Below, piece by piece: positions 1,859-9,623 of a DNA stretch of 64,000 nt. The stretch is from Deltaproteobacteria bacterium. GTDB taxonomy: Bacteria > Desulfobacterota > GWC2-55-46. The stretch spans positions 1 to 64,000 of the forward strand of contig JACRCL010000014.1 of NCBI GenBank assembly GCA_016219015.1, given 5' to 3'. The notes beneath the pieces were generated by a model that was given only the letters and a program-made list of their open reading frames with translations, was not told the origin of the DNA and ran no database searches. Within the stretch, counting starts at the first letter, position 1; each line of letters begins with the position of its first letter. The position numbers and the translations under genes were made by a program.

Positions 1859-1897
1859 ATGTAACCGGCTCCACAGGCACTATGGAACGGATTACAT
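1859..1897. promoter_or_regulatory. Inverted repeat, putative sigma-54 activator binding site
   Basis: Two 14-base arms, ATGTAACCGGCTCC and GGAACGGATTACAT, match as inverted repeats at 11 of 14 positions with an 11-base spacer. The centre lies about 83 bp upstream of the -24 element, the usual distance for an enhancer bound by an NtrC-type activator. That the regulator at 325-1725 binds here is inferred from position and symmetry. Confidence 0.5.
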
Positions 1898-1936
1898 ATT
1901 TTGACCCTCCTTTAAACCTCGCAAAAAAGAAAATCA

Positions 1937-1952
1937 TGTGATATCAATCACT
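1937..1952. promoter_or_regulatory. CRP/FNR-type palindrome
   Basis: TGTGATATCAATCACT fits the CRP-class pattern TGTGA-N6-TCACA at all but the last base. It ends 7 bases before the sigma-54 -24 element. A CRP/FNR-family protein bound here would touch or exclude the sigma-54 holoenzyme, giving a second layer of control (inference). Confidence 0.45.
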
Positions 1953-1959
1953 TAATTTG

Positions 1960-1975
1960 TGGCACTGGTCTTGCT
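1960..1975 (+). promoter_or_regulatory. Sigma-54 (RpoN) -24/-12 promoter
   Basis: TGGCACTGGTCTTGCT matches the RpoN consensus TGGCAC-N5-TTGCW exactly, with the invariant GG and GC ten bases apart. It lies 76 bp upstream of the ATG of the secreted-protein gene. Transcription should start near 1986. Confidence 0.85.
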
Positions 1976-2051
1976 ATATATTCCTGTCGGAAGGGATCGA
2001 AGGTTTTTCTAAAGTTCCGGCTCAACCGTCCGATACAAGGAGGTATTAAAC

Positions 2052-3083
2052 ATGAAAAGACTCTCGCTGATAATCGAAGCCCTTTTCGTTATCGTTGCCC
2101 TCGCCTCATCCGCCTACGCGGAGGATGGCTTGAGGCAGAGACTGATCGAATCCAGCCATATAAACACACTCTACTCGATAGACGACTTCAATACTCTCGC
2201 CTCCGGCGACATGGCGATGATAGCCGGGGAGCTTATGAAGGCGTGCAAGGACACCGGGAGCGTCGCCGAGAAGGCCGAAGACAATTCGATAAAATGCCGC
2301 GGCTACTTCGAGGCGGCCGAGGTAAAACAGGACGGCAACTCCCTGGGGCTTTTCGCCATAAGGACCATTGCCCCCCAGCCCTTCGTTTACAAGACCCCGG
2401 CCCTGCCGTCCTTCAGCGAGATAAGGTTGCCGAAGACGGGCAGGCTCGCGGGCAAATACTCGAACCTGGACATGTACGAGTACATGTCGGCGCTCTGCAA
2501 AAAGAATAACGGCTCACCCGAGATAGTCATAACAAAGAGGTACGGCAAATACCTGAGGCTTACACATGTAAGCACGGCCGAGGGCTCAAGCTACATTATC
2601 TCAAACGGCAAGGAAAAGGACCCGTGGTTTTTCGCCTGCAACGGCAGCCGCAGGTTCGTCGTGGAGAAGGACTACCAGTACAAGCCTGACGAGGACAACC
2701 TGTACTTCCGCCTGAACCGCGGGCTAGAGGGCATTGACTTCGTAAAATCCGACGACTCTGAGGCCGTAGCGCTCCTGAACCTGCGCGGGATGGAGCCCGC
2801 CATGGACGAAGCCGGGCGGACGGACTTCGTGGAGGAGATGGCATGGGAGGTCGCCAACATGCAGATGAACTTCGTGAAGACCTACGCGGGCGAGAGGTTC
2901 AGCGGGCAGTTCTACGGGAGCAAGGCCGAGTGCGGGTACGTGATAATCAAGCAGAGCCAGCCCGAGGAGAAGCAAACCGTAGAGACAGCCTACAACTACC
3001 GGGTCTGCAACAACAGGGTCGCAAGCCTCGATGGCAGGGGCATAAAAGCGGACATGAAAGAGGTCTACGCGAGCGCAAGGTAA
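2052..3083 (+). CDS. Secreted protein of unknown function, RpoN-regulated
   Basis: I do not recognise this 343-aa protein. Residues 1-23 form a Sec signal peptide (basic MKR, hydrophobic core, cleavage after AYA), so the product is exported to the periplasm or beyond. The mature part has six cysteines (about residues 65, 82, 149, 196, 294, 319), an even number compatible with three disulfides. It has no transmembrane segment and no heme motif. The start is supported by AAGGAGG placed 7-8 bases before the ATG. The gene is monocistronic: a sigma-54 promoter lies in front and two stem-loops follow. Expression is probably controlled by the adjacent response regulator. Confidence 0.8.
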   Translation: MKRLSLIIEALFVIVALASSAYAEDGLRQRLIESSHINTLYSIDDFNTLASGDMAMIAGELMKACKDTGSVAEKAEDNSIKCRGYFEAAEVKQDGNSLGLFAIRTIAPQPFVYKTPALPSFSEIRLPKTGRLAGKYSNLDMYEYMSALCKKNNGSPEIVITKRYGKYLRLTHVSTAEGSSYIISNGKEKDPWFFACNGSRRFVVEKDYQYKPDEDNLYFRLNRGLEGIDFVKSDDSEAVALLNLRGMEPAMDEAGRTDFVEEMAWEVANMQMNFVKTYAGERFSGQFYGSKAECGYVIIKQSQPEEKQTVETAYNYRVCNNRVASLDGRGIKADMKEVYASAR

Positions 3084-3100: not shown

Positions 3101-3134
3101 GAAAGAGGGGGGCCTTTTCCGGCCCGCCTCTTTC
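3101..3134 (+). terminator. Stem-loop after the secreted-protein gene
   Basis: gaaagagg-g-gggcc pairs with ggccc-g-cctctttc: 13 bp with one mismatch around a ttttcc loop. There is no strong T-run, so it may be an mRNA-stabilising hairpin rather than a terminator. A second 8-bp hairpin, ccctgcgg/ccgcaggg, follows at 3156-3177. Confidence 0.45.
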
Positions 3135-3212
3135 ACTTTCAACAGGCATAGCGCCCCCTGCGGAAGAAACCGCAGGGTAGCGAGCGATTAAAAAGTTAAA
3201 ACCCCTTACTTG

Positions 3213-3245
3213 AAATCTCCGAGCAAGCCGCGGAGATTTTTTATT
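3213..3245 (+). terminator. Intrinsic terminator
   Basis: aaatctccg (3213-3221) pairs perfectly with cggagattt (3231-3239) and runs into ttttttatttt. It ends the transcript of the secreted-protein gene just before the convergent SEC-C gene. Confidence 0.75.
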
Positions 3246-3246
3246 T

Positions 3247-3966
3247 TCATCTCCCGTGGCATTTCTTGTATTTGTTGCCGCTCCCGCAATAGCAGGGGTC
3301 GTTACGGCCTGGCTCCGTGGCCTTGGTCCGGGGGGCGGGAGAGGCAAGGTTCTTCGAGCAGTAGTCCTTAAGCTGCGCTATGACTTTATCCGCCGCCTCC
3401 CCTATGGTATCCACCCCGTTGGCGAAATGCCTCCGGCAGGTGTCCTTTTCAAGCTCGATAGCCCTCATTACCCTCGTGCCGTCGGGGTCTTCCTTTGCGG
3501 CGTCTATTATCCGGCAGTAGCCCTTCTCCCCTGCCCGCGCCTCGAGCACCCCGAGGTAGCCGCAGTGCGGCGGCCTTACCTCCGCGTTTAAAAGCGCCGG
3601 GTGTATCGAGCAGGACTTGTCAGGTGACAGGAAGAGGCAGCGGAACGCGTACATCGCGAGGATGTTGATGGCCAGTGTCGTCCCGTTCGCCTTTATCTCC
3701 TTTATAGAAACGTTATACTTCTCCGGGGGGCCGAACAGCGGCCTCGGAGGCTCCTCGCCCGTGACATAGGCCCTTGATATCCTCTCCTCCCTCGCCTTTA
3801 TACCCCTTATTATCTCGTCCCTGAAACCCTTTATATCCGACAGCCCGCCCTCTTTTACGACCGTATACGATATGATGCCCCACCACGGGTCGCAGCACAT
3901 GCCCTTGCAAAGGGAGACGCAGACGTCCGAAAAAAACGACCTATTCTCTTCCATGCTAATTCCCAT
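3247..3966 (-). CDS. YkgJ-like cysteine-cluster protein with C-terminal SEC-C zinc motif
   Basis: This 239-aa protein has metal-binding motifs at both ends. Near the N-terminus it carries Cx3Cx3CC (C16, C20, C24, C25). About 90 residues later comes a CLFLSPDKSC / RPPHC pattern, like the YkgJ (UPF0153) zinc/iron-chelating cluster. The last 20 residues, GRNDPCYCGSGNKYKKCHG, are a SEC-C motif as found in SecA tails and YchJ. The function is unknown; SEC-C motifs bind zinc and often contact ribosomes or SecB. A second ATG twelve bases in (MEENRS) is an alternative start, and neither has a convincing Shine-Dalgarno. Confidence 0.75.
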   Translation of the reverse strand: MGISMEENRSFFSDVCVSLCKGMCCDPWWGIISYTVVKEGGLSDIKGFRDEIIRGIKAREERISRAYVTGEEPPRPLFGPPEKYNVSIKEIKANGTTLAINILAMYAFRCLFLSPDKSCSIHPALLNAEVRPPHCGYLGVLEARAGEKGYCRIIDAAKEDPDGTRVMRAIELEKDTCRRHFANGVDTIGEAADKVIAQLKDYCSKNLASPAPRTKATEPGRNDPCYCGSGNKYKKCHGR

Positions 3967-4078
3967 CCACTTATAATAATCTTGCGGTGCGATAATAAAT
4001 TATAACTTTTTTCTCCTGCCACAGTCCATTTTTTTATGGAAATTTGACTGCGGGGCGCCCATGTGCTACCTATCTATC

Positions 4079-5728
4079 ATGAAAACAGACCTGGAGATTG
4101 CCGCCTCCGCGCGCCTCAGGCCCATCACTGAGGTAGCTGGAGCTCTCGATATCCCCACTGGACATCTAATCCCCTTCGGAAGACACTTCGCCAAGATAGA
4201 CGCCGGTTATTTCAAGGAGGTCGGGCAAAAGCCCTCCGGCAGGCTCATCCTCGTAACCGCCATGTCGCCCACGCCGGAGGGCGAGGGCAAGACCACGCTT
4301 ACCATAGGGCTGGCCCAGGCGCTTAAACTGCTAAACAAAAGGGTGTCGGCCTGCATTAGGCAGCCGTCACTCGGCCCGTTCTTCGGGGCTAAGGGCGGGG
4401 CCACGGGAGGGGGCTACTCCCAGGTGCTTCCGCCAGAGGAGATATCGATACACTTTACAGGCGACGACCACGCCGTGACCGCGGCCCATAACCTCATCTC
4501 TTCGATGATGGACAACTCCATCCATTACGGGAACCCCCTTAACATAAACGCCCAAAGGATACTCTGGCCGAGGATAACCGAGGTGAACGACAGGGCTTTA
4601 AGGACAATAAAGGTCAACGCCGGGCTTACGAGCGAGAGGGGCGACCAATTCCATATCTCGGCCGCCTCGGAGCTGATGTCGGTCCTCTGCCTGAGCCTCG
4701 ACATAAAGGAGCTTAGGTCGAGGGCCGGGGAGATAATAGTGGCCTTTGACGCAAAAGGCGCCCCTGTAAAGGTTGCGGACCTTAAAGCGCACGGGTCCGC
4801 GGCCGCGCTCCTTAAAAACGCCATCAACCCCAACCTCGTCCAATCTATCGAGGGCGTCCCAGTCTTTGTCCACGGAGGGCCTTTCGGCAACATCTCAATA
4901 GGCTGCAACAGCCTCTTATCCACGGCCATGGCATTGAAATCATCCGACTATGTCTTTACCGAGGCCGGGTTCGCAACCGAGCTGGGCGCCGAGAAGTTCT
5001 TCGACATAAAATGCCGCGCCGGGGGGCTTAACCCTTCATGCGTTGTGATAGTGGCGACGCTTCGGTCGCTCCGCTTCCACGGGGGCTCGAAGGACTATAA
5101 AGCCGGTGACGCCAGGGCCGCGCTAAGGGGGATAGACAACCTAAAGAAACATATCGAGAACATAACAAAGTTCAATCTCCCTTCGCTCGTCGCACTGAAC
5201 CGCTACATCGATGACGACCCTCATGAGATGGATGAGGTTATGAAGGCCCTCCGGTCAGAAGGCATCAACGCCGTCACGGCGGATGTGAGGGAGCTGGGCG
5301 GAAGGGGCGGGCTTGAAGCCGGGGAGGAGATAGTCAGGCTATGCGAAAGAGAAAACGGCTTGAAATACCTCTACGATAACGGCTCGTCTATAGAAGAAAA
5401 GGTCAGTACCATCGCAAGGGAGATGTACGGCGCTGAAGACGCCGTATTTACCGAAGAGGCGAAGGACGAGGCCGCTGAATTGAAGCGTCTCGGCTACGGT
5501 GCCCTTCCGGTCTGTGTCGCAAAGACGCCGAAGTCCCTATCTGATGACCCGGCCCTGATCGGCAGGCCGAAGGGGTTCAGCATAACGGTCCGCAGGGTCC
5601 GTCCGGCGGCGGGCGCGGGCTTTATAATAGCCGAGTGCGGGAATATCCTTCTCATGCCGGGGCTGCCGAAACACCCGAGGGCCGAGTCTATCGACATAGA
5701 CGATAACGGGAGGATAAGGGGGATATAA
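4079..5728 (+). CDS. fhs: Formate--tetrahydrofolate ligase
   Basis: ATP-dependent synthesis of 10-formyl-THF from formate and THF in the cytoplasm. It feeds one-carbon metabolism and, where present, the methyl branch of the Wood-Ljungdahl pathway. The ATP loop TPEGEGKTT is at 65-73, followed by the family signature FGAKGGATGGGYSQ. The length of 549 aa is normal. The track start (4061) adds MCYLSI; ATG 4079 (MKTDLEIA) matches how the family begins. No other Wood-Ljungdahl gene is in the window, so an acetogenic role cannot be claimed. A TTGACT box at 4044-4049 lies upstream, but the -10 region is poor and no Shine-Dalgarno is seen. Confidence 0.95.
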   Translation: MKTDLEIAASARLRPITEVAGALDIPTGHLIPFGRHFAKIDAGYFKEVGQKPSGRLILVTAMSPTPEGEGKTTLTIGLAQALKLLNKRVSACIRQPSLGPFFGAKGGATGGGYSQVLPPEEISIHFTGDDHAVTAAHNLISSMMDNSIHYGNPLNINAQRILWPRITEVNDRALRTIKVNAGLTSERGDQFHISAASELMSVLCLSLDIKELRSRAGEIIVAFDAKGAPVKVADLKAHGSAAALLKNAINPNLVQSIEGVPVFVHGGPFGNISIGCNSLLSTAMALKSSDYVFTEAGFATELGAEKFFDIKCRAGGLNPSCVVIVATLRSLRFHGGSKDYKAGDARAALRGIDNLKKHIENITKFNLPSLVALNRYIDDDPHEMDEVMKALRSEGINAVTADVRELGGRGGLEAGEEIVRLCERENGLKYLYDNGSSIEEKVSTIAREMYGAEDAVFTEEAKDEAAELKRLGYGALPVCVAKTPKSLSDDPALIGRPKGFSITVRRVRPAAGAGFIIAECGNILLMPGLPKHPRAESIDIDDNGRIRGI

Positions 5729-6230
5729 GGGGGGATTGGTGTTTTTTTGAAGTGGAAGTAAAACGTCGAGTTCTATGCGGGTTCAGGTTTGTAACCTGAA
5801 CCCTAAAATTCATATACCAAGAAAGATTATTTTTTAGCCAAGGATTCTTTGCGCATTGCCATGCGCTTCGGGCATAGGGGCTCGCTCCCTACATCCTCCT
5901 GCCGCGGGCGAGCCCGCCGAACCTTCCTAAGAAATACGCCTTCTGCCCCGCTCGCCCGCCCAGCCCCCATCCCTACGGTCGCTACGCCCTATGCCCTGTG
6001 GGTTTTTGAAAAGAAAAAACATTGGTTAGGCGCGCTCTAGCGCGCAAGGGTTTTACATATCGGATTGTTTTCGTTCACCTTTTCCAATAACCCCTCCCCC
6101 TCTTCCCTGTGCCTTTCCTCACAGCCCCAAAAGCGCCTTCAAGGTTAGACTTCTTAATTGAGCTATACTTTAAACACCATTCCTTTTATAATTTTCTAAA
6201 AGCCTCTCACCAACAGAAACCCGGTCAACA
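5729..6230. repeat. 502-bp gap filled with palindromic DNA
   Basis: There is no credible gene. gggttcaggtt/aacctgaaccc (5779-5803) is an 11-bp perfect stem with a 3-base loop. GGGCATAGGG (5870-5879) and CCCTATGCCC (5987-5996) form a wide inverted repeat whose interior is itself rich in gcgggcgagcccgcc-type palindromes. gcgcgctctagcgcgc is at 6030-6045. A perfect -10 TATAAT occurs near 6187 without a matching -35. The 63-aa ORF at 5849-6040 reads through the palindrome and looks spurious. Confidence 0.55.
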
Positions 6231-9200
6231 ATGGCGCTCGGCAGATACAAAGACCTCCTCAAGTCGTTAGGCTTCCAGTCCTTCCTGTGGACGCAGTTCC
6301 TCGGCGCGTTCAACGACAACCTCTTTAAGATAGTCCTTTCCATGGTCGCCGTGAACATGGAGGCCGGCTCCATGGGCGACGGAGGCCATGTATCCCTCGT
6401 CGGCGCGATATTCATACTCCCGTTCTTCCTCTTCTCGGGCTACGCGGGCTACTTCGCGGACGTCTACAACAAAAGGACCGTCCTCATAGCGGCGAAGTTC
6501 TTCGAGATCATAGCGGTAACGACAGGCCTGTTCGCCTTCCTCTTCGGCAGGTTCGAGGTCATGCTCTTCACGCTCTTCCTCATGGCCCTCCACTCCACGT
6601 TCTTCGGCCCCGCCAAATACGGCATAGTCCCGGAGATGCTCCCGGACAGGGAGCTTTCGAGGGCCAACGGGCTCCTTGAGATGAGCACCTTCCTCGCCAT
6701 AATCCTCGGCACGTCCGCCGGGGCGATAATGTTCTCGGCGTGGAAGTCCGACCTCGGCATAATCGGCGTATTCCTCATAGTGATATCCGTAATCGGGACG
6801 GGTCTGAGCTTCGGCATAGGGCGGGTCGAGAAATCCGGCGCTGAAAAGGCCTTCAGGTTCAACCCGTTCTCCGAGATAGCCGGAGGCCTTAGGACGCTGC
6901 TCCGGGAAAGGCTCCTCCTTTTCACGGTATTGGGCATAACGTACTTCTGGTTCCTGGGCGCGCTCCTTCAGATGGACATACTCCTTCTCGGGAAAGAGAC
7001 CCTCGGGCTTAACGACTTCTGGACCGGGATACTCATAACCTTCCTGGCCGTGGGCATAGGAGCGGGCTCGATAACGGCCGGGAGGCTCTCGGGCGACAAG
7101 ATCGAGCCGGGGCTGGTGCCGCTCGGCTCCATAGGCATGGGCGTATTTTCGGTCCTCCTTGCCATGTCGCCGGACTACCCGCGCGCGTGCGCCTCCCTCG
7201 TCATGCTCGGGTTCTCTGGAGGGCTATTCATAGTGCCCCTGAACGCGCTTCTCCAGCAGAAGAGCCCTCCGACCGAAAAGGGCCGCGTAATAGCGACAAA
7301 CAACTTCGTAAACACGGCGGGGATACTCCTGGCCTCGTTCGCGCTCTGGGCCCTCAAGGACAGGGCCGGGGTATCTCCCGACAGGATAATACTCTGGTTC
7401 GGGCTTCTGACCTTCCTCTGCACCGTTGTAATGATGAGGTCGCTGCCGGACTTCCTCGTGAGGTTCGTCCTGTGGATGCTCACCCACACGCTCTACAGGA
7501 TAAGGATAGCGGGACAGGAGAACGTGCCCTTCAAAGGGCCGGCCCTGCTGGTCTCCAACCATGTCTCGTATGTTGACGGCTTCCTGATAGGCGCCTGCGT
7601 CCAGCGGTTCATCCGCTTCATGGTCTACGAATACTTCTACGGCCTCAAGGGGACGGGGTGGCTGCTGAAGCTCATGAAGGCCATACCCGTTGCGGACGGG
7701 AACAGCAGGGACATTGTAAAGTCGATCCGGAAGGCCCGCGAGGAGTTGAAAGCCGGCCACGTCGTCTGCATCTTCGCCGAGGGGGCCATCACGAGGACGG
7801 GCAATACCCTCCCGTTCAAGAAAGGCTTTGAAAGGATCGTCGAGGGGCTTGACGTCCCTGTCGTCCCGGTCCACCTTGACAGGGTCTGGGGCTCGGTCTT
7901 CAGCTTCAAAGGGGGCAGGTTCTTCTGGAAGTGGCCCGGCGCCTTCCCGCGCCCTGTCACCGTATCTTTCGGCGCACCCATGAAGTCCACGGCAACCGCG
8001 CAGGAGGTGAGGCAGGCCGTGACCGAGCTTGGGAGCGTCGCCTTCGACCACAGGACGCCGCAGACCGACATGCTCCACCTGAGGTTCATAAAGACGGCCA
8101 AGAGGCGCTGGCGGGACTTCTGCATGGCCGATTCCACAGGCAGGTCCCTTTCATGGGGAAGAGCGCTCGTCGGCAGCTTACTTCTCTCGAAATGGCTCTT
8201 GAGGAACAGGCCCGGGGAGTCCAATATCGCGATATTGCTGCCTTCGACAGTTGCCGGGGCGCTTTCGAACATCGCCTGCCTTATGGCCGGCAAGACCCCC
8301 GTAAACCTCAACTTCACCGCCGGGAAAGAGGCCATGGACTCGGCGATCTCCCAGTGCGGGATAAAGACCGTCCTTACCTCGCGAGCGTTCCTTTCAAAGA
8401 CCGGCCTCGAAGAGGCCGGCTCCATGATATTCCTCGAAGAAATAATGGCCGTGGTAAGTCCTGTCGATAAGGCCCTTGGGGCCATCTCTGCTTTCGTACT
8501 CCCCCACTGGGCCATAAGGCACCTCTTGTGTCTCAAGAGAAGCGACCATAACGAGCTTGCGGCCATAATCTTTACCACAGGCTCGACAGGGGTGCCCAAA
8601 GGGGTGATGCTCACCCACCGTAACATCATCTCCAATATCGAGGGGTTCTCGGAGGTCTTTACACTATCAAAGGGTGATACCGTTTTGGGGGCGCTGCCGT
8701 TCTTCCATTCCTTCGGCTTTACGGGCACGATCTGGTTCCCGCTTATTTGCGGTTTTTCCGCGGTCTACCACCCCAACCCTCTCGACGCGAAGTCAATAGG
8801 CGAGCTGGCGCGCAGATACAAGGCCACCATCCTCATCGGGACGCCGACTTTCTATTCGTCTTACTTGAAGAAGTGCGCCCCGGAGGACTTCAAGACCGTC
8901 AGGTACGCCATAGCCGGCGCCGAGAAGCTGAGGGAGAATATCTCGAAGGAGTTCAGGGATAGGTTCGGGATAGAGCTGCTCGAAGGTTACGGCTGCACCG
9001 AGCTCTCCCCGGTCATTTCGGTCAACTTCCCGGATATCGAATACGGGGGCTTAAAGCAGAAGGGCTTCTTCCCGGGCACCGTCGGCCACCCGATACCCGG
9101 CGTATGCGCCAGGGTAGTGGACCCGGAGACAGGCTCCCAGACCGCCCCGGGCAAAGACGGGCTCCTCCTCGTAAAGGGGCCTAACCTCATGAAGGGGTAC

Positions 9201-9623
9201 CTGAACCAGCCGGAGAAGACAGCTCAGGCGATCAAAGACGGCTGGTACGTCACGGGCGATATCGCGTCCATCACCGAGGACGGCTTCATAAGGATAACGG
9301 ACAGGGTCTCGAGGTTCAGCAAGATCGCGGGCGAGATGGTCCCGCATATAAGGATAGAAGAGGTCCTGGCCGAGGCCGCCGGGTGCGACTGCGCGGTAAC
9401 GGCAATCGCTGACGGGGCAAGGGGCGAGAGGATCGTGGCGTTCTACACGGCGGACAAACCCCCTGCAGAGGTCTGGGAGAGGCTCTGCGCGGCTGATCTG
9501 CCTAGGCTCTGGATACCGAAGAGGGATGCGCTTTTCAGGGTCGATTCGATCCCTATAACCGCTACCGGAAAGGTGGACCTCAAGAGGGTAAAGGCCCTCG
9601 CCCTCGAGATGACCGGGGTTTAA
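6231..9623 (+). CDS. LplT-PlsC-acyl-ACP synthetase fusion (lysophospholipid recycling)
   Basis: A 1130-aa three-module protein. Residues about 1-410 are a 12-helix MFS transporter like LplT, which flips lysophospholipid inward. Residues about 425-620 are a PlsC-type acyltransferase with NHVSYVDG (HX4D) and the FAEG motif. Residues about 640-1120 are an AMP-forming acyl-ACP/CoA synthetase with TTGSTGVPKG, YGCTELSP and GWYVTGD. In E. coli, LplT and Aas are two proteins that import and re-acylate 2-acyl-lysophosphatidylethanolamine; here all steps are on one chain. No carrier-protein domain is visible. The ATG has no clear Shine-Dalgarno. The gene is convergent with the next one, 6 bp apart. Confidence 0.9.
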   Translation: MALGRYKDLLKSLGFQSFLWTQFLGAFNDNLFKIVLSMVAVNMEAGSMGDGGHVSLVGAIFILPFFLFSGYAGYFADVYNKRTVLIAAKFFEIIAVTTGLFAFLFGRFEVMLFTLFLMALHSTFFGPAKYGIVPEMLPDRELSRANGLLEMSTFLAIILGTSAGAIMFSAWKSDLGIIGVFLIVISVIGTGLSFGIGRVEKSGAEKAFRFNPFSEIAGGLRTLLRERLLLFTVLGITYFWFLGALLQMDILLLGKETLGLNDFWTGILITFLAVGIGAGSITAGRLSGDKIEPGLVPLGSIGMGVFSVLLAMSPDYPRACASLVMLGFSGGLFIVPLNALLQQKSPPTEKGRVIATNNFVNTAGILLASFALWALKDRAGVSPDRIILWFGLLTFLCTVVMMRSLPDFLVRFVLWMLTHTLYRIRIAGQENVPFKGPALLVSNHVSYVDGFLIGACVQRFIRFMVYEYFYGLKGTGWLLKLMKAIPVADGNSRDIVKSIRKAREELKAGHVVCIFAEGAITRTGNTLPFKKGFERIVEGLDVPVVPVHLDRVWGSVFSFKGGRFFWKWPGAFPRPVTVSFGAPMKSTATAQEVRQAVTELGSVAFDHRTPQTDMLHLRFIKTAKRRWRDFCMADSTGRSLSWGRALVGSLLLSKWLLRNRPGESNIAILLPSTVAGALSNIACLMAGKTPVNLNFTAGKEAMDSAISQCGIKTVLTSRAFLSKTGLEEAGSMIFLEEIMAVVSPVDKALGAISAFVLPHWAIRHLLCLKRSDHNELAAIIFTTGSTGVPKGVMLTHRNIISNIEGFSEVFTLSKGDTVLGALPFFHSFGFTGTIWFPLICGFSAVYHPNPLDAKSIGELARRYKATILIGTPTFYSSYLKKCAPEDFKTVRYAIAGAEKLRENISKEFRDRFGIELLEGYGCTELSPVISVNFPDIEYGGLKQKGFFPGTVGHPIPGVCARVVDPETGSQTAPGKDGLLLVKGPNLMKGYLNQPEKTAQAIKDGWYVTGDIASITEDGFIRITDRVSRFSKIAGEMVPHIRIEEVLAEAAGCDCAVTAIADGARGERIVAFYTADKPPAEVWERLCAADLPRLWIPKRDALFRVDSIPITATGKVDLKRVKALALEMTGV

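Follow-up and report, generated by a model that had tools for sequence, protein, structure and literature searches.

The window, a 64,000-nucleotide stretch that starts at base 1 of contig C4 in a 2.24 Mb assembly (33 contigs, 96.6% complete), carries near its left end a regulator gene, a series of upstream sites and a gene for an exported protein, which the initial annotation had described as a complete sigma-54 circuit. The regulator gene, REG, lies on the forward strand at 325–1725 and, as had been proposed, encodes an NtrC-type response regulator ahead of the promoter. Pfam and NCBIfam scans and an alignment with 17 relatives identify a receiver with its phospho-acceptor aspartate, a sigma-54 AAA+ domain with a GAFTGA motif and a Fis-type helix–turn–helix, and the alignment shows that the acidic pocket of the receiver is kept along with the phospho-acceptor. 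REG falls below every NCBIfam equivalog cut-off among the 25 families listed of 128 (best 400.6 bits versus 714); the regulators compared include AtoC, PEP_resp_reg, NtrC, NtrX and ZraR. Its dN/dS is approximately 0.065, and the genome has a single copy of rpoN (PF04552, E = 4.5e-62).

Downstream on the same strand lies SEC (2052–3083), with a Shine–Dalgarno sequence, AAGGAGGT, at 2037–2044 as read from the sequence. Its product has 343 residues, and the features for which it was first singled out, export and six cysteines, can be read directly: a Sec-type signal peptide ending in AYA (about residues 1–23) is followed by N-terminal, middle and C-terminal parts. Two hairpins 3′ of the gene agree with the claim that it has its own terminators, one at 3101–3134 (fold −27.1 kcal/mol, z −6.25) and an intrinsic-terminator-like one at 3212–3240 on the forward strand, followed by a T-run that would be a U-run in the transcript (−11.9 kcal/mol, z −2.85). 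Compared with the sister species, G001 of the same genus (record JAUSLB010000028.1), SEC has a dN of 0.16 and a dS of 0.85 (dN/dS 0.19), and is therefore a real gene.

The exported protein

SEC matches no Pfam or NCBIfam family in domain scans, as expected of a protein called unrecognised, and 29 family members scanned together give only isolated weak matches. A 29-row profile searched against the PDB finds nothing convincing; its matches, to proteasome alpha subunits and antibodies (best E = 0.027), were set aside as chance. An AlphaFold2 model of the whole protein from two sequences (pLDDT 39, pTM 0.29) was not used. The C-terminal 81 residues alone are predicted with a pLDDT of 82.9 as one helix and five strands, and in searches of this model against the PDB Foldseek gave nothing at E ≤ 0.001 (best 3.8e-2) and VIA nothing with Z ≥ 8. 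A pseudopilin (GspI/EpsI) aligns to it with a VIA Z of 6.0, for which 8 is the guide value, over 63 residues at an rmsd of 3.0; the top fold rows, pseudopilins and hotdog thioesterases, are taken to reflect a common helix-plus-sheet arrangement. The idea that SEC consists of three copies of one domain was also rejected, as profiles of the three parts, compared with one another, matched at probabilities below 1%.

All 29 members share the middle part of SEC. Besides Met1, the invariant positions include two cysteines, C149 and C196, along with R169, W192 and K206, and we recognise no catalytic signature. SEC is most likely a disulphide-stabilised periplasmic or extracellular protein with a binding or structural role, not an enzyme. 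The protein family is unnamed in the libraries searched. Among 63 genomes of the class, the SEC profile detects it in 26, of which 25 belong to the family of the window (one with a fragment only); in a sample of 395 genomes from the phylum it finds 7, again confined to that family.

A predicted sigma-54 promoter with tandem palindromes

The exact RpoN promoter reported upstream of SEC is present at 1960–1975 on the forward strand (TGGCAC-N5-TTGCT), with correct GG/GC spacing, and places the predicted transcription start at 1986 by computation. Across the genome, TGGCACN5TTGCW occurs 12 times, versus 0 for the reversed control. Five of these 12 exact promoters (L034–L038, on contig C12 of the window's genome, G000) lie within about 70 kb of each other, all on the minus strand. 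In the sister species, where SEC is 74% identical, both repeat arms, the CRP-like box described below and the −24/−12 element stand out as footprints against a diverged background. Activator-dependent transcription from 1960–1975 is predicted.

The initial annotation also reported a 14-base inverted repeat at enhancer distance. A repeat does lie at that place, and its unit is different: reading the ten REG-linked promoters jointly gives an 18-bp palindrome, TATGGAA-N4-TTCCATA, that occurs twice with a spacing of 20–23 bp. In the window, the two copies are a degenerate one, TATGTAACCGGCTCCACA, at 1858–1875 and a second, TATGGAACGGATTACATA, at 1881–1898, spaced 23 bp apart, their centres lying near −119.5 and −96.5 relative to the predicted start. 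The two arms first noticed correspond to the 15 outermost bases of either dyad; the palindromic nature of each copy explains their mirror symmetry. The second copy is the sole site in the genome within one mismatch of TATGGAA-N4-TTCCATA.

Comparison of related genomes ties this arrangement to REG. The family set comprises 30 genomes; the SEC promoters read were 10 REG-linked, 11 REG-less and 10 further ones that belong to a second activator class (below), with 209 other upstream regions as the null. The REG-less copy of G018 (L052) counts among the 11 and stands outside the protein alignment, as does the broken SEC of G025 (L056), which is included in the promoter counts; a G005 fragment of 61 positions was excluded from the analysis. 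A REG orthologue (E ≤ 1e-130) is present in 10 of the 30 genomes, with SEC directly downstream in 9 and one gene away in the tenth, G007. All ten REG-linked SEC genes have both the tandem palindromes and the −24/−12 element, so the repeat is kept upstream of orthologues, and it keeps its place with respect to the −24 element. Tandem scores (maximum 28) are 24 at the window SEC and 22–27 across the ten promoters, compared with ceilings of 17 in the second class, 19 in the REG-less copies and 19 in the other upstream regions, none of which (0/209) reaches 20. Similarly, all ten REG-linked promoters reach a sigma-54 score of 28 or more, versus 4/209 other regions.

The 11 SEC copies without an adjoining REG have neither element (tandem scores up to 19, sigma-54 scores within 300 bp up to 23.5). 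Two of them are in G007 and G016, genomes in which REG adjoins a second SEC gene. Control of SEC by REG, which the initial annotation had inferred, is supported by this co-occurrence: 10/10 with REG versus 0/11 without.

A second activator class

Other SEC relatives are accompanied by a second class of sigma-54 activator, which shares approximately 33% identity with REG and whose receiver, as read from the alignment, is degenerate. This activator precedes or diverges from the SEC relative in eight of ten cases; the other two members of the group (L066 and L067), which was delimited by promoter and protein tree (Group B, n = 10), have no regulator within the stretch read. The eight activators adjoining SEC relatives (L059, L061, L063, L068, L069, L070, L072 and L074) have a GAFTGA-like loop. 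These SEC relatives also have −24 elements, and in eight of the ten promoters the −12 element reads TTCC, not TTGC.

A different repeat, AANCGCMC, lies on one strand upstream of SEC in 7/10 second-class regions; the 20 regions that are REG-type or REG-less have none on that strand. The copies resemble AAACCGCACACC and lie at L061, L063, L066, L067, L068, L069 and L074. AANCGCMC is a candidate binding site of the second activator class. Site and regulator class therefore vary together, and a matching split of regulators and upstream sites into two kinds is what direct binding would predict.

A CRP-type box and a predicted sigma-70 form of the promoter

Between the palindromes and the −24 element, a CRP/FNR-like palindrome had been reported 7 bases before the latter. 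It is there, with that gap, as a CRP-type box, TGTGATATCAATCACT, at 1937–1952, which matches TGTGA-N6-TCACA at 9 of 10 bases; it is identical in the sister species and matches at 8 of 10 in G003. Counted from the predicted start, its centre (1944.5) is at −41.5, where CRP sits at class II promoters. The other 11 exact sigma-54 promoters of the genome have no such box at 8/10 bases or better. Among REG-linked promoters the box is clear in three of ten (the window, G001 and G003), degenerate in G021 (L047, 7/10 bases) and missing from six, and is therefore inessential to the sigma-54 form.

The same box recurs where REG is missing. In six of the 11 REG-less copies (L048, L049, L050, L051, L053 and L056) it is followed after 21–22 nt by TATAAA or TACAAT. 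Box plus −10 hexamer at a score of at least 13 occurs in 6/10 REG-less SEC genes versus 7/209 other upstream regions (Fisher 2e-6), or in 6/11 with the eleventh copy; because the REG-less copies are phylogenetically clustered, the boxed six represent only three genera. In the window, the −24/−12 element occupies the 21–22-nt spacer that precedes the −10 hexamer in these genes. There, TATATA at 1975–1980 on the forward strand, 22 nt after the box and matching TATAAT at 4 of 6 bases, could, on tentative grounds, mark an overlapping sigma-70 promoter; better hexamers occur only in the REG-less relatives, and other sigma-54 promoters of the genome are likewise A+T-rich after the −12 element.

A candidate protein for the box is encoded on contig C28, a CRP-family protein with an RExVxR recognition helix, SSREVVSRALKKM, and homologues of this CRP-like factor are found in 28 of the 30 family genomes. 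In our reading this helix corresponds to residues R180 and E181 of CRP, which have been tied to the CRP site, according to the available part of a published account (PMC1274295).

Probable loss of the regulator and of a protein domain

REG-less SEC genes fall on several branches of the protein tree, which has four changes, three of them forced by well-supported branches. Many REG-less loci share with REG-bearing ones the order SEC, SEC-C-motif gene, formate–tetrahydrofolate ligase and a protein of approximately 1,130 residues; in the window this family-wide order after SEC occupies 3247–9623, with a 1,130-residue open reading frame. Further, a PAS-type gene lies directly upstream of SEC in G022, G016, G025 and G029, and the order is PAS–REG–SEC in G003 and G026 (PAS calls by domain scan for the genes of G022, G029, G003 and G026). 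Given the shared locus and the PAS gene directly before SEC, loss of REG in place is the simplest account. In the simplest reading of the promoters, sigma-54 serves a single position in part of the lineages and CRP with sigma-70 serves it in the rest, with three or more changes between them.

The REG-less genes are not dead, as pairwise dN/dS is 0.13–0.30 in six pairs. Their products differ in one respect: the C-terminal part is wholly or mostly absent in all nine aligned REG-less proteins and in a tenth, from G018, whereas it is present in all 20 SEC proteins with a sigma-54-type promoter (Fisher 1e-7 for 20 versus 9, with relatedness ignored). Loss of REG thus appears to go with loss of the C-terminal domain of SEC.

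Proposed mechanism and alternatives

All of the support for the REG–SEC circuit is sequence-based, and takes the form of the gene calls, motifs, conservation and co-occurrence described above. We think it likely that REG is a local sigma-54 activator that acts through the dyads chiefly, and perhaps solely, on SEC, with a CRP-family protein at −41.5 that took over where REG was lost. REG dimers would bind the tandem palindromes at 1858–1898, assemble into an active AAA+ ring and, by DNA looping, contact RNA polymerase–sigma-54 waiting at 1960–1975; the promoter would then open and SEC would be made and exported under one specific signal. That signal would probably arrive either by phosphorylation of the intact receiver by an unlinked kinase or by way of the cytoplasmic PAS-only protein for which relatives have a gene upstream. 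The CRP-family protein at −41.5 might block or help the sigma-54 polymerase, or drive an overlapping sigma-70 start, and in relatives without REG a CRP-type site and sigma-70 −10 hexamer would have taken over at the same position. Within this scheme, we infer the binding of REG and CRP, the transcription start, the direction of each effect and the signal.

The −24/−12 element fits exactly into the spacer between class II site and −10 hexamer, an arrangement in which the sigma-54 and sigma-70 polymerases could share a start base. This invites a more tentative extension that we rate at somewhat below even chances, in which the promoter serves two holoenzymes, the sigma-54 half (activator, enhancers and −24/−12) has been lost repeatedly with CRP and sigma-70 as the fallback, and the C-terminal domain has been lost each time, making regulator and domain a functional unit.

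Three other explanations bear on the same observations. The CRP-type box could be the main control and the −24/−12 element minor or decaying, SEC being mostly a class II CRP/sigma-70 gene. The position of the box at exactly −41.5, the good −10 hexamers in the same layout in 6/11 REG-less genes and the CRP-like factor in 28/30 genomes speak for this, but the −24/−12 element and both dyads are conserved wherever REG occurs, the box is absent from 6/10 such promoters, and REG itself has a dN/dS of about 0.065; we regard it as unlikely. Still less credible, with very little probability in our estimate, is that the palindromes serve another role, such as an operator for self-repression of REG or part of its terminator. 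In most genomes they do follow closely on the REG stop codon, but in G007 an unrelated reverse-strand gene parts REG from SEC and the palindromes remain with SEC, and they hold a steady position ahead of the −24 element.

The remaining explanation concerns the breadth of the circuit. NtrC-type regulators often have several targets, and REG could be a broader regulator for which SEC is one target of several, the rest reached through weaker or single palindromes; single palindromes with two mismatches are found at eight other places in the genome. Genome-wide counts argue against this: at up to three mismatches there are 76 sites versus 95 for the reversed control, and in nine relatives the palindrome core pattern gives 3–8 sites each versus 1–9 for the control, with the SEC promoter among them in 9/9. 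Moreover, 5 of the 6 exact palindromes in these relatives are at SEC, and the other 11 exact −24/−12 promoters of the window's genome reach a tandem score of at most 17/28, versus 24 at SEC. The sixth, a single palindrome away from SEC in G026 (L100, G026:C22:39591–39608), may mark a second target and counts on the side of a broader REG, which we hold to be rather unlikely. With no enrichment and no second tandem pair among the matches listed, REG looks single-target, in line with the original description of a circuit devoted to one protein.

Relation to known systems

Judged by comparison, the circuit is real and of a known kind, and its unusual part would be the superimposed CRP-type site together with the repeated joint loss of a regulator and a protein domain. 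Among the closest parallels is NorR, which has an NO-sensing domain where REG has a two-component receiver. Tandem palindromic sites ahead of a −24/−12 promoter are already described for it: in NorR–norVW and NorR2–hcp-hcr, as in the REG–SEC pair, an activator acts through such sites just upstream of the promoter, and the NorR2 gene is likewise beside its target, according to the available part of that account (PMC1274295). REG has a different palindrome from the NorR circuits, and the product of its proposed target gene is exported and falls in no known family. The sigma-54 regulome of Desulfovibrio vulgaris likewise has many enhancer-binding proteins with conserved inverted repeats as binding motifs, and a −24/−12 consensus of tGGcacg/tTGCt; the portion of that account available to us contains neither the REG palindrome nor a SEC-like target (PMC4641369).

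The proposed promoter exchange also has a precedent. At Neisseria pilE, one lineage has changed from sigma-54 to sigma-70, the activator has decayed and the promoters overlap and compete (PMC6755734, in part). At pilE, as is predicted for SEC, the sigma-54 and sigma-70 promoters of a single gene lie near each other or overlap; in Neisseria, however, the sigma-70 form is constitutive and rpoN is broken, as that source describes, whereas rpoN is intact in the genome of the window. Further, the sigma-70 form of SEC carries a class II CRP-type box and its tree needs at least three changes. Inhibition by CRP of a sigma-54 promoter such as Pu has been reported (PMC3900584, in part), and an action of CRP on a sigma-54 promoter is what is proposed for SEC. 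A limited literature check found nothing on the SEC protein, nor on a −24/−12 element inside a class II CRP-type spacer.

Related bacteria provide a compact natural series in which one gene has sigma-54 signatures, CRP-type sigma-70 signatures or both, making a change of sigma factor at a promoter testable with short synthetic promoters. An exported protein family is also defined together with a conserved dedicated switch, and the predicted REG site can be tested now.

Neighbourhood of REG and the signal

The word "complete" in the original description goes too far, because relatives have no adjacent sensor kinase and just 324 bases separate REG from the contig end at which the window starts. 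Pfam scans of the open reading frames upstream of REG at eight loci of relatives revealed no kinase domain; in the window and in G001 the contig ends before any gene upstream of REG. A PAS-only protein is encoded upstream of REG at five of the eight loci (G003, G026, G006, G015 and G024, and not G021, G007 or G016). The window's genome has no close relative of this protein in the sequence available, which at this locus starts at the contig end; the best match is 36% identical over 129 residues, in a 902-residue frame. PAS-only proteins that lack kinase domains could be kinase-free sensors. Cytoplasmic proteins of this type are found by REG or SEC at L045:10704–12020, L046:11175–12131, L048:7464–8357 and L051:5445–6488. 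Near REG in G026, a small exported protein (L045:12480–13079) has a weak PEP-CTERM match just below the cut-off.
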